Shown here one piece after another: positions 3,532 through 20,076 of a stretch of DNA of 20,076 nt. This DNA is from a virus. Numbering within the stretch: the stretch's first letter is position 1; each line of letters starts with the position of its first letter. The stretch lies in IMG/VR virus record IMGVR_UViG_3300008267_001113, positions 1 to 20,076 of that record; one strand, 5' to 3'. The translations under genes and the position numbers were made by a program. The notes under the pieces are model-generated. The model did no database searches and was not told the DNA's origin. It worked only from the letters and a program-made list of their open reading frames with translations.

Positions 3532-4077
3532 ATGGCTTTTAATGTATCTGAATTTCGTTCTCAAATGCAGTTTGACGGCGCAAGAGCCAATCTGTTTGAA
3601 GTTGAGATGAATTTTCCATCCTTTGCACAGCCAGGAAACGCAGCAAGAAAACTGCGTTTCGTCTGTAAAACTGCACAGATTCCAGGATCTACAGTTGGTA
3701 TAGTGCCAGTACAATACTTCGGTCGCGAAGTAAAGTTTGCTGGCAATCGTACATTTGCTGACTGGACTGTGACAGTATTGAACGACGAAGATTTCGTTGT
3801 TCGCAATGCCTTCGAAAGATGGATGAATGGGATCAATTCTCATCGCTTCAATACTCGCTCAGCTTCTGCTGCTACACCAACATCTTATGGAACTGATGCC
3901 TTTGTCAAGCACTATGGCAAGACAGGTAAGATCATCAAGCAATATAAGTTTGTAGGCATGTTCCCAAATGACCTCGCACCAATCGATCTCGACTGGGGCA
4001 ACAATGATTCGATTGAAGAATACTCAGTGACTTTTGCATATCAATGGTGGGAAGCAGCAGCCGAAAGCGTTGTTTGA
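3532..4077 (+). CDS. 19: Tail tube protein
   Basis: This is the subunit of the hexameric rings that stack into the inner tail tube through which DNA leaves the head. The product is 181 residues against 163 in T4 gp19. It has the family layout: an N-terminal FRSQMQFDGARANLFEVEM segment, a central FADWTVTVLNDEDFVVRNAF segment before an RWMNG helix, and a C-terminal YSVTFAYQWWE strand. Position directly after the sheath gene supports the call. A late-type promoter element and an AGGAG site lie just upstream, so it may be transcribed alone as well as with gp18, which would suit the high copy number of both proteins. Confidence 0.94.
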   Translation: MAFNVSEFRSQMQFDGARANLFEVEMNFPSFAQPGNAARKLRFVCKTAQIPGSTVGIVPVQYFGREVKFAGNRTFADWTVTVLNDEDFVVRNAFERWMNGINSHRFNTRSASAATPTSYGTDAFVKHYGKTGKIIKQYKFVGMFPNDLAPIDLDWGNNDSIEEYSVTFAYQWWEAAAESVV

Positions 4078-6873: not shown

Positions 6874-7458
6874 GTGAAGTCTCTCTTCATTCAAGGTCCA
6901 TTTCTCGTAGCAGAAATGAAGAACCGTAATGGTCGTATGTATAAGACTGATACTCTCGCAAAAGAAGTTGGTCGCTACAACGAAGAATATGTCACGAAAA
7001 ACCGTGCATTCGGTGAGTTAGGTCATCCTGATTCTCCGTCAATCAACCTAGACCGAGTATCACACTTGATCACCTCACTCAAGCAGGAAGGTAATCAGTG
7101 GATCGGTAAGGCAAAAATCCTTGAAACACCAATGGGTAAAATCGCCAAGTCCCTTATGGAAGGCGGTGCAACTCTTGGTGTATCATCACGCGGCATGGGT
7201 TCACTTAAAGAAGTGAATGGTGTCAATGTGGTGCAAGACGATTACTATCTAGCCACAGCGGCAGATATCGTAGCGGATCCGTCCGCTCCAGGCGCTTTTG
7301 TTCAGGGCATTATGGAAGGCAAGGAATGGGTATGGGATAACGGTAAGGTCAAGGAAATTGACATTAATCGTTACTATGAAGATATTAAGAATGCTCGTCA
7401 AAAGCAATTAGATGAAGTTGCGCTGAAGATCTTTACGAACTTCGTGTCAAAACTTTAA
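6874..7458 (+). CDS. 21: Prohead core protease (5' end frame problem)
   Basis: This serine protease of the T4 gp21 family (S77/U9) removes the scaffold and trims gp23 during head maturation. From GTG 6874 the product has 194 residues. The active-site regions match T4: GELGHP with His51 (T4 His85) and LGVSSRGMGS with Ser104 (T4 Ser140). TAADIVADPSAPGAF is also typical. The reading frame continues upstream to 6826 and encodes TETIEEVKLITEEKNG, which looks like the authentic N-terminus, but it is closed by TGA at 6823-6825 with no usual start codon. An ATG at 6822, directly after the previous stop, is one base out of frame. Removing a single A would join them. GTG 6874 is therefore a fallback start. 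Confidence 0.88.
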   Translation: MKSLFIQGPFLVAEMKNRNGRMYKTDTLAKEVGRYNEEYVTKNRAFGELGHPDSPSINLDRVSHLITSLKQEGNQWIGKAKILETPMGKIAKSLMEGGATLGVSSRGMGSLKEVNGVNVVQDDYYLATAADIVADPSAPGAFVQGIMEGKEWVWDNGKVKEIDINRYYEDIKNARQKQLDEVALKIFTNFVSKL

Positions 7459-10031: not shown

Positions 10032-10574
10032 ATGACAGTACTCAACCGTAATCCTATCAACCCAGATTTATTGCAAAGCACGAAGTTCCGTGTCACATTT
10101 TCAAGACTTCCTGGCGTCACATACTTCTGCAATAGTGCAAATCTTCCAGGCATTTCGCTCACAGAAATTCCTATGCCAACTCCATTCGTAGAACTCTATC
10201 TACCAGGAGAAAAGGCAATCTACGACACATTTAATATTACCTTTCTAGTCGACGAAGATCTACGAGCATGGACAGAACTCCATGATTGGATTCGCGGTGC
10301 AACCTTTCCTACAGAATTTGAAGAGTATGTAAACCTTGCTCGAACAAATCCAGGTGCAAATATTCGTAGTGCTGCTGTTCGTCCACCAGTGTATACTGAT
10401 GCTACATTATCAATCTATACTAACAAGAACAATCCAAACTTCAGAGTAAAGTTGGTAGATGTATTCCCAACGAATGTGGGTTCGCTTTCATTCTCTTCTG
10501 GAGATTCCGCTGAGAACATTGTTACAGCAGATGCAACTTTTAGGTTCTCTTATTTCAACTACGAAAGAATCTAG
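10032..10574 (+). CDS. Tail tube-family protein (second gp19-like; possibly tail completion gp3)
   Basis: A 180-residue structural protein. It begins MTVLNRNPINPDLLQSTKF and carries NLPGISLTEIPMPTPFVELY, then ITFLVDEDLRAWTELHDWIR, the VDEDL-x-x-W pattern typical of gp19-superfamily proteins. Comparison with the true tube protein at 3532 shows the same plan: an N-terminal strand, an NLPG or QIPG loop, a DED motif before a helix, and a C-terminal strand pair, with little direct identity. T4-like marine phages carry a gene in this place between gp23 and uvsY, sometimes named for the tail completion protein gp3. I therefore favour a tube-end, neck or baseplate protein with the tube fold rather than the tube itself. 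The exact role is inferred. Confidence 0.8.
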   Translation: MTVLNRNPINPDLLQSTKFRVTFSRLPGVTYFCNSANLPGISLTEIPMPTPFVELYLPGEKAIYDTFNITFLVDEDLRAWTELHDWIRGATFPTEFEEYVNLARTNPGANIRSAAVRPPVYTDATLSIYTNKNNPNFRVKLVDVFPTNVGSLSFSSGDSAENIVTADATFRFSYFNYERI

Positions 10575-16313: not shown

Positions 16314-16871
16314 ATGACGAAGATTGTAAAGTATAGAGATGGAATGCTGATTGAGTATGAAATCCTGAAGTTAGTAGACTTCTATGACCCAATTCTCAGA
16401 ACACCAACTGTTCCTTATGATTTTGAAAATAGAAATGATGCAGAATATATTGCATACTCTTTAGTTGAAACCATGGGTCATTATGGTGGATTAGGTTTGT
16501 CTGCCAATCAAGTTGGATTAAAAGACAGAGTCTGTGTTATCAACATGGGCGAAAAGGCATGGGTGATGTTCAACCCACAGATTATTGAATCTTCTGGTAA
16601 GATTGCAGATTTCCAAGAAGGCTGCTTATCTTATCCAGGATTGTACATCAAGTGTAATCGTTTAGACCACATCAAGGTTAAGTTCCAAGCAGTCGGTGGA
16701 CAATTCGTAGAGCATGAATTTGATGGATTGACAGCCGTTTGCGTTCAGCATGAAATTGATCACCTAGACGGAATTGTGTACACCAATCATATCAGTCCAA
16801 TCAAACTTGACATAGCCAAGAAAAAGGCTAAATCGAACCTGAAAAAGATGGCAAGAGTAAAGACTGCGTAA
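16314..16871 (+). CDS. def: Peptide deformylase
   Basis: This metalloenzyme removes the formyl group from new protein N-termini. The 185-residue product has the three family motifs: GLGLSANQVG at 59-68 (GxGLAAxQ with Ala to Ser, Gln66 kept), EGCLS at 102-106 (metal ligand Cys104), and QHEIDH at 145-150 (ligands His146 and His150, catalytic Glu147). The N-terminal YDPILRTP is also typical, and about 20 extra residues precede it; ATG 16344 is an alternative start. T4 has no such gene, but several marine T4-like phages do. Placement behind gp46 in the same operon suggests expression during takeover and late protein synthesis. It looks functional. Confidence 0.95.
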   Translation: MTKIVKYRDGMLIEYEILKLVDFYDPILRTPTVPYDFENRNDAEYIAYSLVETMGHYGGLGLSANQVGLKDRVCVINMGEKAWVMFNPQIIESSGKIADFQEGCLSYPGLYIKCNRLDHIKVKFQAVGGQFVEHEFDGLTAVCVQHEIDHLDGIVYTNHISPIKLDIAKKKAKSNLKKMARVKTA

Positions 16872-16887
16872 GTTATTGATTCTATTA
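16865..16887 (+). repeat. Direct repeat, copy 1 (upstream half of the cobT promoter cassette)
   Basis: A 23-base segment starts in the last sense codons of the deformylase gene, includes its TAA and ends in ATTGATTCTATTA. It matches 19194-19216 at 22 of 23 bases (T against C at the tenth base). Confidence 0.85.
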
Positions 16888-16900
16888 GAGTTTTTTCCGC

Positions 16901-16938
16901 TTTACAAAACAACCATTGTATAGGATAATGGTTGTATG
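16901..16938 (+). promoter_or_regulatory. Strong sigma70-type promoter for cobT, predicted leaderless transcript
   Basis: TTTACA (16901-16906, 5 of 6) and GATAAT (16924-16929, 5 of 6) are spaced by exactly 17 bases. The expected start, seven bases past the -10, is the A of the cobT ATG at 16936. The block GATAATGGTTGTATG is identical to that before cobS. AGGA at 16922-16925 could serve as ribosome site only on read-through mRNA from the deformylase gene. Confidence 0.75.
16910..16934 (+). repeat. Inverted repeat over the cobT promoter, operator-like
   Basis: CAACCATT (16910-16917) and AATGGTTG (16927-16934) are perfect 8-base inverted repeats around a 9-base spacer. They cover part of the -35/-10 spacer, most of the -10 and the bases just before the start. 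Centres are about 17 bases apart, which fits a dimeric repressor less well than 10 or 20, so an RNA hairpin in read-through mRNA is an alternative. The cobS promoter has only the right arm. Confidence 0.5.
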
Positions 16939-19200
16939 AATTCTAATCTACAGTCCTCCAAGAGTATTCTAGCGAAACTTCTCGCCGCCGAGAACATCAC
17001 TGTCTCGCACCAGAATATCAAGACCGCGATGTTCAATCTGAAGACTCGCACTCTCATTTGCCCTGTCTGGAAGGATATGGACGGCGACCTGTATGACTTG
17101 CTCATGGGTCACGAGGTTGGTCATGCGTTGAATACGCCAGAGGCTGGTTGGCACTCTGCGATTCATGATGAAAACGGCAAGCCACTCGGCAAGTTCAAGG
17201 ATTTCTTGAATGTCATCGAGGATGCGCGCATTGAACGACAGGTCAAGCGCAAGTTCCCTGGTCTTGCGAAGTCGTTCGCCACAGCGTACAAGTCGCTGTA
17301 CGACCGCGACTTCTTCGGCATCAAAAATATCGACGCCAACAAACTAAATCTCATCGACCGCATCAATATTCGCTACAAGATGGGCGCACATATTCCTGTT
17401 GCGTTCAACGATGATGAGCGTGTGTTCCTTGTCGACATCGACAATGCTGAGACTTGGGATCAGGTTGTTGATGTTGCTCGTCGCGTGTATGCTTACTGCA
17501 AGCAGCAGAAAGAAGAGCAAAAGTCGCAGATCAATAACATGCAAGATCTTCAAGAAGAACTGCAGCAGCAGTTCGAAGAAAACCAATCTGAATTCCAAGA
17601 CTTCACCGACGAGTCCGACGACTCGGCTGATGATTCCGATGATGACTCTGCTGATTCTGATGAAGATGGCACACCAGAAGAAGATTCGGCTGACGACAGC
17701 GACTACGAGGAAGACTCTGAGCCAAATGATGGCGTTCAGAGTGCCAGCAGCGAGCAAGAAGATCTCGATGAGTCAACTGATGACGACCCCGAGTCTGTGA
17801 CTGACCGCAATTTTCGCCGACGCGAAGATGAATTGGTCAACCAGACTGGCGAAGTCTTCATGATTGAATTGCCCGAAGCCGTTCTTGAGAATATTATCCT
17901 TCAGAACAAGTTTGTGATGGACGACCTCGAGTCATTCATTCGCAAGCAGGTTGCGATTAATGATTACGGTAAGCATTTTATCTCCTTTGAGACTGTTGCT
18001 GCCAAGTGTGTGCGCAAGTTTAACACAAACAACAAAAAGTTTATCATGCATATCTTGAAGGAATTCGAGATGCGCAAGAAGGCTGCGGATTATGCTCGTG
18101 TTCAGACTGCCAAGACTGGTGAGTTGAACATGCGTATGCTGCACAACTACAAGTTTACCAATGACCTGTTCAAGAAAATCTCTGTTGTGCCGAAGGGCAA
18201 GAGTCACGGCATGGTCATGTATGTTGACATGTCTGGCTCAATGGATTATATTCTGCGCAACACGATTGAACAGTGCCTTGTGCTTGCTTCATTTTGCCGT
18301 CTTGCGAAGATTCCGTTCGATGTGTATGGCTTCAGCGATGACCATTATAACTCGAGTGATTCGAATATTTTTGCTTCAAAGAAGTTCATCAATTCGACTG
18401 AGAATGAGGGATCTTCTGGGCATATGAGAAATAGCAGTTTCCACCTCAAGCATCTGCTGGGTTCGACTTTGTCGCCCACCGATTATCGCCGCTCGTTTAC
18501 CAATCTTTGTATTGTTGCGAATGAGTATCATCGCGGCAGGGGTTTGGATCACAATGACAAAGACCATGGCAGATTTGATGCGTATTGGGATGAATCTGGC
18601 TTTGGTCTGAACGGAACTCCGTTCCAGCAGACTTTGCTGGCTTCACGCGACATGATTAACAATTTCCGCGCCAAGCACAAGTTGGATATTGTCAATGTTA
18701 TCTATCTGACCGACGGCGAGGGTGGTGAAGGTATACAGATGCCGTGGAGACGCAACGGTGTTTATTATCTTGTCGACAAGAAGACCAAGAAGAAGATTCG
18801 CAGCGAGGGTAATATCCAGGCTGCGTTGACTCAGTTGGTTCGCGATGTGACTGGTTGTAAGCATCTTGGCTTCTTCCTTGCATCCAAGAATGATGTGAGC
18901 CGAGTTTGCAAAGATCTTGAGTATGTGCAAAAGATTGATCTTCTACAGAGCAAAAATTTCAAGAAGCAGTTTCGTGAGGAGAAGTGTGTCGCGATCCCAA
19001 ATCTTGGGTATGACAAATACTTTTATATCCAGTCAGCGGCTAGTAGTATTCAAGAAGATGAGATGTCGATTGACGGCAGTATGAGCAAGAACAAGATGGC
19101 GAATGAGTTTTCTCGTTCTGTAAACAGCAAGAAGACCAGCCGTGCTCTTGTGACTCAGTTCGCCGAGGAAATTTCGGCGAGTTTGAAGTGGGTTGCGTAA
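16936..19200 (+). CDS. cobT: CobT-like protein: HExxH metallopeptidase-like domain, acidic linker, VWA domain
   Basis: A 754-residue protein with three parts. Residues 1-200 carry LLMGHEVGHALNTP, a zinc HExxH motif at 59-63, and IEDARIE at 94-100, whose Glu95 or Glu100 could be the third ligand as in gluzincin peptidases; this piece also recalls the EQARVE region of cellular CobT. Residues 224-285 are almost only Asp, Ser and Glu, as in the CobT acidic linker. The C-terminal VWA domain has a complete MIDAS: DMSGS 431-435, Thr561 and Asp593 (LTDGEGG). Cellular CobT works with the AAA+ CobS in cobaltochelatase, and the next gene is CobS-like, but no CobN is seen. A remodelling or proteolytic role is as likely as a chelatase role. 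ATG 16936 is the only in-frame start that keeps the conserved N-terminus. Confidence 0.85.
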   Translation: MNSNLQSSKSILAKLLAAENITVSHQNIKTAMFNLKTRTLICPVWKDMDGDLYDLLMGHEVGHALNTPEAGWHSAIHDENGKPLGKFKDFLNVIEDARIERQVKRKFPGLAKSFATAYKSLYDRDFFGIKNIDANKLNLIDRINIRYKMGAHIPVAFNDDERVFLVDIDNAETWDQVVDVARRVYAYCKQQKEEQKSQINNMQDLQEELQQQFEENQSEFQDFTDESDDSADDSDDDSADSDEDGTPEEDSADDSDYEEDSEPNDGVQSASSEQEDLDESTDDDPESVTDRNFRRREDELVNQTGEVFMIELPEAVLENIILQNKFVMDDLESFIRKQVAINDYGKHFISFETVAAKCVRKFNTNNKKFIMHILKEFEMRKKAADYARVQTAKTGELNMRMLHNYKFTNDLFKKISVVPKGKSHGMVMYVDMSGSMDYILRNTIEQCLVLASFCRLAKIPFDVYGFSDDHYNSSDSNIFASKKFINSTENEGSSGHMRNSSFHLKHLLGSTLSPTDYRRSFTNLCIVANEYHRGRGLDHNDKDHGRFDAYWDESGFGLNGTPFQQTLLASRDMINNFRAKHKLDIVNVIYLTDGEGGEGIQMPWRRNGVYYLVDKKTKKKIRSEGNIQAALTQLVRDVTGCKHLGFFLASKNDVSRVCKDLEYVQKIDLLQSKNFKKQFREEKCVAIPNLGYDKYFYIQSAASSIQEDEMSIDGSMSKNKMANEFSRSVNSKKTSRALVTQFAEEISASLKWVA

Positions 19201-19216
19201 GTCATTGATTCTATTA
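19194..19216 (+). repeat. Direct repeat, copy 2 (upstream half of the cobS promoter cassette)
   Basis: Second copy of the 23-base segment at 16865-16887, with one mismatch. It spans the cobT stop codon just as the first spans the deformylase stop. The distance to the -35 is 13 bases in both copies. Confidence 0.85.
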
Positions 19217-19229
19217 ACGAAAATAGATC

Positions 19230-19258
19230 TTTACTTTCGAGCCTATTCGAGCGATAAT
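19230..19258 (+). promoter_or_regulatory. Sigma70-type promoter for cobS with direct repeats in the spacer
   Basis: TTTACT (19230-19235) and GATAAT (19253-19258) are spaced 17 bases apart, the same layout as the cobT promoter. The spacer consists exactly of TTCGAGC, CTA, TTCGAGC: two 7-base direct repeats 10 bases apart, one helical turn. This looks like a binding site for a regulator on one face of the DNA. The predicted start is at about 19265. Confidence 0.75.
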
Positions 19259-19264
19259 GGTTGT

Positions 19265-19294
19265 ATGGTAAATTATATTTGTTATGGAGTCTGA
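19265..19294 (+). CDS. Possible 9-codon leader ORF before cobS
   Basis: An ATG at the predicted transcript start opens MVNYICYGV and stops at TGA 19292-19294, one base before the GTG that has the better ribosome site for cobS. It lies in the duplicated promoter block, where the same ATG starts cobT in the first copy. It could be a leaderless coupling peptide or simply a by-product of cassette duplication. Confidence 0.25.
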   Translation: MVNYICYGV

Positions 19295-20076
19295 TGTGAG
19301 AAAGTCGTTCTATGGTACTCTTGCCGCGCAGACGGAATTTCTTGAGAAAATTCATGCGCATTTCGACAAGGAGAGCATCTCCTTGAAGGAACTCAATACC
19401 TTCTGCAGTGACCCGAAGAACGGTGTGGAAAATTTCCCATACTTCATTCTTCGTGAGCGCAAGGTTGCTCGCAATACCTTCAACATCGCACCGAAGCATG
19501 TTGGCAGCGTGACGCCCACTGCTCCTCAGCAGCAGTCTGTCTCGGCTGTTGCCATGGCTCCCGTTGCGCAGGTTGTAAATCTTGCGTCGCGTCGTGCGCA
19601 GAATGTGACTGAGTCGTTTGTGCCAGAAAAGAATGGCACCTATGTTCCGTTCGGATTCTACAACGATCTCAAGAACATCATCAAGTCTCGCATCTTCTAC
19701 CCTATCTACATCACTGGTCTTTCTGGTAACGGCAAGACCATGATGATTGAGCAGGTGTGTTCTGCGCTCAAGCGTGAGTTGGTTCGCGTGAATATCACCA
19801 AGCGCACCGATGAGTCCGACCTCATCGGTTCCTATGAACTGATTGACGGTAGCACCGTTCGCCGCGAGGGACCTGTGCTGACTGCGATGCGTCGTGGTGC
19901 TGTGCTTCTTCTTGACGAGTGCGACCTTGGCACCGAGGACATCCTCTGCCTTCAGCCGATTCTCGAAGGCAAGCCATACTTCGACAAGAAGACTGGTGAG
20001 GTTGTCCATCCTGCTGCTGGTTTCAATGTGATTGCTACTGCGAACACGAAAGGCAAGGGCAGTGATGACGGTCGAT
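19284..20076 (+). CDS. cobS: CobS/MoxR-like AAA+ ATPase (3' end outside the window)
   Basis: The open frame runs to the window end, 264 codons so far. Residues 1-115 are an N-terminal region with a low-complexity part (PQQQSVSAVA and neighbours). The AAA+ domain follows: Walker A GLSGNGKT at 145-152, Walker B VLLLDECD at 207-214 and sensor I IATAN at 250-254. DLIGSYELIDG and LQPILEGK are typical of the CobS branch, known from T4-like cyanophages. It probably acts with the CobT-like VWA protein upstream. Two starts are possible: ATG 19284, which lacks a ribosome site, and GTG 19296, with GGAG at 19286-19289 six bases upstream; I favour GTG but give the longer form. This stretch is visibly richer in G and C than the recombination genes. 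Confidence 0.9.
   Translation, partial: MESDVRKSFYGTLAAQTEFLEKIHAHFDKESISLKELNTFCSDPKNGVENFPYFILRERKVARNTFNIAPKHVGSVTPTAPQQQSVSAVAMAPVAQVVNLASRRAQNVTESFVPEKNGTYVPFGFYNDLKNIIKSRIFYPIYITGLSGNGKTMMIEQVCSALKRELVRVNITKRTDESDLIGSYELIDGSTVRREGPVLTAMRRGAVLLLDECDLGTEDILCLQPILEGKPYFDKKTGEVVHPAAGFNVIATANTKGKGSDDGR

Follow-up and report, generated by a model that had tools for sequence, protein, structure and literature searches.

A zincin-VWA protein and its AAA+ partner in T4-like marine phages as a probable ATP-driven metallopeptidase

The IMG/VR virus record IMGVR_UViG_3300008267_001113 is represented here by its positions 1 to 20,076, a virus contig with T4-like genes whose full length of 20,076 bases we call the window. 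Its last two genes encode a protein with an N-terminal HExxH domain and a VWA domain, followed by a CobS/MoxR-type AAA+ ATPase. We consider it likely that the two proteins form a two-part, phage-encoded, ATP-driven zinc metallopeptidase, and the evidence favours this reading over that of a cobaltochelatase part.

Translation of the first gene bears out the elements that the original prediction had read from the letters alone, namely HExxH, a downstream IEDARIE, an acidic linker and a VWA domain with a complete metal ion-dependent adhesion site (MIDAS), all within a protein of 754 amino acids (Table 1). Both metal sites are strictly conserved: H59, E60, H63, N92, E95, D96 and R98 as well as the MIDAS residues are invariant in 24/24 aligned relatives, which are 21-76 % identical to the window protein and were collected by tblastn and by patterns without HExxH. 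A chance occurrence of HExxH is ruled out by this invariance in a set collected independently of the motif. HExxH is likewise found in 136/136 sequences with letters at the site in a larger set, a count that is partly selected because one of the collecting patterns includes part of HExxH; the count of 24/24 is unaffected. N92, E95, D96 and R98 do not vary in this larger set either. The third zinc ligand is likely to be E95, judging from the sequences. Pfam offers no meaningful family for the protein, and searching the PDB sequences with profiles of the family alignments gave nothing useful.

The AlphaFold (AF2) model of residues 1-205, built from 115 sequences, is confident (predicted local distance difference test, pLDDT, 88.9; predicted template modelling score 0.83) and is predicted to adopt a zincin-like fold, with HExxH on a helix spanning residues 50-66 and E95 on a helix spanning 87-106. 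The first 14 Foldseek matches of this model in the PDB are all zincin metallopeptidases, with the minigluzincins jannalysin/selecase and abylysin leading and ArdC, an M61 aminopeptidase and BlaR1 among the others. The top probabilities are 0.98-1.00, yet the E-values are weak, the best being 0.078. The minigluzincins are the closest solved folds (E-values only 0.08-1) and differ from the phage domain in being small and stand-alone, with neither a VWA nor an AAA+ partner. Viral models with the same fold belong to phage proteins named CobT or VWFA and to halovirus VWFA proteins. For the VWA domain, the MDN1 MIDAS domain and the NorD VWA are among the top Foldseek matches.

The AAA+ gene begins about 84 bp downstream of the peptidase-VWA reading frame. 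Its MoxR-type assignment, also made in the original prediction, rests on the family match to PF07728 (E=5.4e-20). The two genes are tightly paired in phages. A tblastn search with the peptidase-VWA protein found 463 phage records (365 named Synechococcus, 61 Cyanophage and 24 Prochlorococcus), and the search with the ATPase returned the identical three name counts. In all annotated cyanophage and pelagiphage loci that we read, the ATPase gene lies just downstream, between gp46 and gp45. Across 138 loci the ATPase is present in 109, many of the others ending at the locus boundary; in 105 it is downstream on the same strand, with a median gap of 87 bp.

We hypothesize that the AAA+ protein would form a ring. 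The partner's VWA domain would dock on it by inserting a finger into the pore, in the manner of NorD on NorQ. In the NorQD structures a VWA finger is held in the AAA+ pore, and in the authors' proposal the VWA domain is rotated by ATP hydrolysis as the linker extends (PMC13036017). We infer a similar docking for the phage pair because its VWA domain matches NorD and the MDN1 MIDAS domain in the fold search. The MIDAS side of the VWA domain would capture a protein substrate, ATP hydrolysis would then move this domain together with the acidic linker, and the tethered zincin domain would then cut the captured protein, with His59, His63 and Glu95 binding zinc and Glu60 serving as the catalytic base. 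Zinc binding, peptidase activity, docking on the ring and the gating of cleavage by ATP are predicted properties. The proposal is supported by cellular HExxH-VWA proteins, which also lie beside AAA+ or Walker A-bearing genes.

Several points weigh against a driven peptidase. Proteins with HExxH may be non-peptidases. No PDB match to the N-domain model reaches E=0.001 in Foldseek. In one subgroup of phages the 2.4-8 kb read downstream of the peptidase gene contain no CobS-like gene (loci L102, L110, L112, L117, L119, L120, L123, L125 and L132, whose peptidase-VWA proteins are about 690-720 amino acids long), and the record of L119 has a PHROG 249 ATPase gene elsewhere (L230). Finally, the same family has been taken as CobT (PMC8651126).

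One explanation for the pair that dispenses with cleavage is a chaperone of the NorQD/CbbQO type, acting in metal insertion or remodelling, in which the zincin domain would bind metal or substrate without cutting. The plan of the phage pair is indeed that of NorD and its ATPase (N-domain, disordered linker, VWA domain and MoxR AAA+ partner; PMC13036017), the VWA domain matches NorD in structure, and CbbO/NorD-type proteins have a related domain around EDAR(I/V)E. The two systems differ in that HAAAH or HQAAH stands in place of HExxH in the two such proteins that we read, and in that the cellular targets, cNOR and Rubisco, are not phage-related; the window holds no gene for either. The predicted catalytic residue, Glu60, shows the same invariance as the histidines, which pure metal binding would not require, and we regard a non-cutting chaperone as unlikely. 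For metal loading into a host target, which the original prediction had also entertained, we obtained no positive evidence.

The related cellular domains emerged when the N-domain profile was run against about 1,200 genomes, and they form two groups. The first, from Chloroflexota and one alphaproteobacterium, has an intact HExxH, an EDxRIE or EDxRVE helix and a VWA domain. The second has HAAAH or HQAAH with EDARVE and is judged to be of the CbbO/NorD type by its architecture and neighbouring ATPase. AAA+ or Walker A-bearing genes lie near both. In profile comparison the first group scored a probability of 97.6 across 169 columns and the second one of 95.8 across 64, with CobT weaker; the accompanying E-values are those of single comparisons with few sequences. 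Four further Chloroflexota VWA proteins (L193, L196, L226 and L227) have NDMRVNR in place of EDARIE, two of them (L193 and L196) also HEAAEA in place of HExxHA; they adjoin AAA+ genes where the flanks could be read and are possibly another degenerate branch.

What is new here is the presence of these cellular relatives beside AAA+ genes, some with HExxH intact, while the CbbO/NorD-type proteins (HAAAH/HQAAH) and CobT (RGTAD) look dead. These sequence comparisons suggest that a metallopeptidase still intact in phages has inactive relatives among the proteins that serve CobS, CbbQ and NorQ as VWA partners. It is conceivable, at somewhat less than even chances, that ATP-driven zinc metallopeptidases were the ancestors of CobT, CbbO and NorD, which would be enzymes that have lost their activity and retain only the remodelling part, the active form being kept by phages and some bacteria, so that the phage 'CobTs' would be proteases. 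We found no statement of such a relation in the literature that we examined, where the NorD N-domain is described as not conserved (PMC9976466). A link of this kind would explain the origin of the poorly conserved N-domains of these partners.

A second alternative has been published: such pairs are taken as viral CobST, for which a peptidase label is 'mistaken', and would replace the host CobS and CobT, work with the host CobN in cobalt insertion and raise the B12 supply (PMC8651126). The likeness to cobaltochelatase is real, since CobS and CobT are also an AAA+ protein and an acidic-linker VWA protein with a distantly related N-domain and a conserved E(D/Q/T)AR, and the phage ATPase is similar to CobS. 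The similarity to CobT is weak. A phmmer comparison with the solved CobT gives E=4e-4, aided by the acidic linker, and TIGR01651 (CobT) matches 8/24 aligned relatives. Profile comparison with CobT gives a probability of about 72 over 105 columns for the N-domain alone, which is stronger than the full-length comparison, where only the VWA domain is matched (probability 13). All scores are far below the curated cut-offs: 21.5 bits against 759 for TIGR01651, and for TIGR01650 (CobS) 40 bits against 558 in the window ATPase and 40-75 bits among it and its homologues, complete ones included. PF06213 has no match in the window.

The N-domain alignment places RG(T/E)AD of cellular CobT opposite GHEVGH of the phage protein. 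HExxH is found in 0/15 cellular CobTs, consistent with the remark in the original prediction that cellular CobT is not known as a peptidase. HExxH persists in all the CobT-like proteins of phages from five other, unrelated lineages, each with an annotation or match as CobT or porphyrin biosynthesis (SSU5, Cyrano, ICP2, T5S1 and Rhizobium N1_10), and in the protein of Ochrobactrum phage OC from the 24-sequence alignment. A cellular CobT captured unchanged by a phage is ruled out by the cut-offs and by the loss of the zinc site in CobT.

The CobN family is absent from the window, as originally reported, and also from 21 phage records, which include 13 named phages whose whole sequence was searched. 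On the host side, PF02514 proteins are present in the genomes behind two Synechococcus loci, one Prochlorococcus locus and one Rhodobacteraceae bin, as viral CobST would have it. PF02514 was not found in the E. coli control genome, though E. coli phages carry a related pair, nor in a Nonlabens genome (G002), though its assembly has a T4-like contig with the pair. Given the scores below the cut-offs, the retention of HExxH in phages and its absence in CobT, and the lack of CobN in the records searched, the peptidase label looks right rather than mistaken, and we think viral CobST improbable. In the Caulobacter vibrioides control genome a CobT above the curated cut-off occurs with no PF02514 match, so cellular CobT may itself occur without CobN.

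A third alternative shares the protease chemistry and fixes the target. In group 2.2 jumbo phages a MoxR AAA+/vWA pair whose vWA protein has an N-terminal metallopeptidase has been described and assigned to virion assembly (PMC7824862; ASV44729.1/ASV44728.2), and by description the window pair is alike: an adjacent MoxR-type AAA+ gene, a vWA domain with intact MIDAS and an N-terminal metallopeptidase-like domain, also in a large phage. The pair would then be an assembly chaperone that also cleaves structural proteins. A MoxR-vWA pair lacking the peptidase is reported to be needed by the Acidianus two-tailed virus for assembling its tails (PMC7824862). The window, however, has a head maturation protease of its own, and the pair lies outside the structural modules, between gp46/gp47 and gp45/gp44 in T4-like phages and adjoining or near DNA polymerase genes in SSU5, Cyrano, T5S1 and Rhizobium N1_10. 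We give virion proteins as the fixed target little credence. Standard head maturation in particular is less likely, because of the separate head protease and of the replication-module position in unrelated phages. The location inside a replication/recombination module suggests instead that the pair may act during the replication phase, its target being a protein of the host or of the phage. The same order (uvsW, gp47, gp46, pair, gp45, gp44) is seen in a 188 kb T4-like phage contig within the isolate assembly of Nonlabens xiamenensis (L053), possibly a carried phage.

A role as a defence-system protein is rejected on the basis of PADLOC, which gave no match for the peptidase-VWA protein and only a marginal BrxF match in the P-loop region of the ATPase (E=0.004).

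For the ATPase, the consequences of a metallopeptidase would be considerable. The gene cobS has long been listed as a 'B12 gene' of the cyanophage core, and surveys of the ocean include it among the metabolic genes. Should the ATPase be a protease motor, the B12-gene label misreads hundreds of isolates, and a core step of infection by marine phages has gone unstudied. The pair itself is real, ordinary in distribution and already catalogued, a standard component of T4-like marine phages. The cyanophage core genes 'peptidase' (T4-GC 146) and cobS (T4-GC 150), which correspond to PHROG 459 and 249, are direct homologues in identical order and in the same gp46-gp45 position, although the identity to the window protein is about 30 %; its nearest relatives are uncultured contigs at 70-76 %. 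The suggestion in the original prediction that this would be a new phage system does not hold, because such a pair is already described (PMC7824862) and cobS is already a cyanophage core gene (PMC3037559).

Table 1. Features of the peptidase-VWA/ATPase pair and of the head maturation protease in the window
Feature	Position	Strand	Basis
Head maturation protease (gp21-type)	6874-7455		PHROG 207
Promoter-like element, peptidase gene: ATTGATTCTATTA box (16875-16887) and TTTACA-17-GATAAT (16901-16929)	16875-16929	+	
Metallopeptidase-VWA protein, 754 aa	16936-19200	+	PHROG 459 'peptidase', E=1.8e-178
N-terminal zincin-like domain, residues 1-205 (predicted)	16936-17550	+	AF2 model, Foldseek PDB matches
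HExxH, His59-Glu60-Val-Gly-His63	17110-17124	+	24/24 in alignment
Glutamate helix, N92-V-I-E95-D96-A-R98-I99-E100	17209-17235	+	N92, E95, D96, R98 invariant; model helix 87-106
Acidic disordered linker, residues ~200-290	17533-17805	+	Sequence; pLDDT <50 at 215-282
VWA domain, residues ~420-700	18193-19035	+	Foldseek
MIDAS DxSGS, D431-M-S433-G-S435	18226-18240	+	Invariant in 24-sequence alignment
MIDAS partners T561 and D593	18616-18618 and 18712-18714	+	Invariant in 24-sequence alignment
Near-copy of promoter-like element, ATPase gene: box (19204-19216) and TTTACT-17-GATAAT (19230-19258)	19204-19258	+	
CobS/MoxR-type AAA+ ATPase, first 264 aa, ends with contig	19284-20076	+	PHROG 249 'porphyrin biosynthesis'
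Walker A, GLSGNGKT	19716-19739	+	Sequence
Walker B, VLLLDE	19902-19919	+	Sequence

A promoter-like element precedes both genes in the window and in its closest relatives. This shared element suggests that the peptidase and ATPase genes may be co-regulated. The two regions (16875-16938 and 19204-19267) are near-duplicates, and the 49-base spacing is exactly equal before both genes. The T4-type late promoter motif shows no excess in the window and does not occur upstream of the pair. HTVC008M is not among the phages covered by the pelagiphage transcriptome paper. Since the -10-like hexamer is very near the peptidase start codon, a transcript from the putative element could be almost leaderless.

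The T4-like set of the window comprises terminase, sheath, tail tube, portal, head maturation protease, scaffold and major head protein genes and those for UvsY, UvsW, the late sigma factor, gp47, gp46 and a peptide deformylase, followed by the pair. The deformylase gene (16314-16871) immediately precedes the pair, and the same arrangement is found in Ochrobactrum phage OC (L022). The window contains two tail tube genes (3532-4077 and 10032-10574), both PHROG 45, the second of which sits between the major head protein gene and uvsY.

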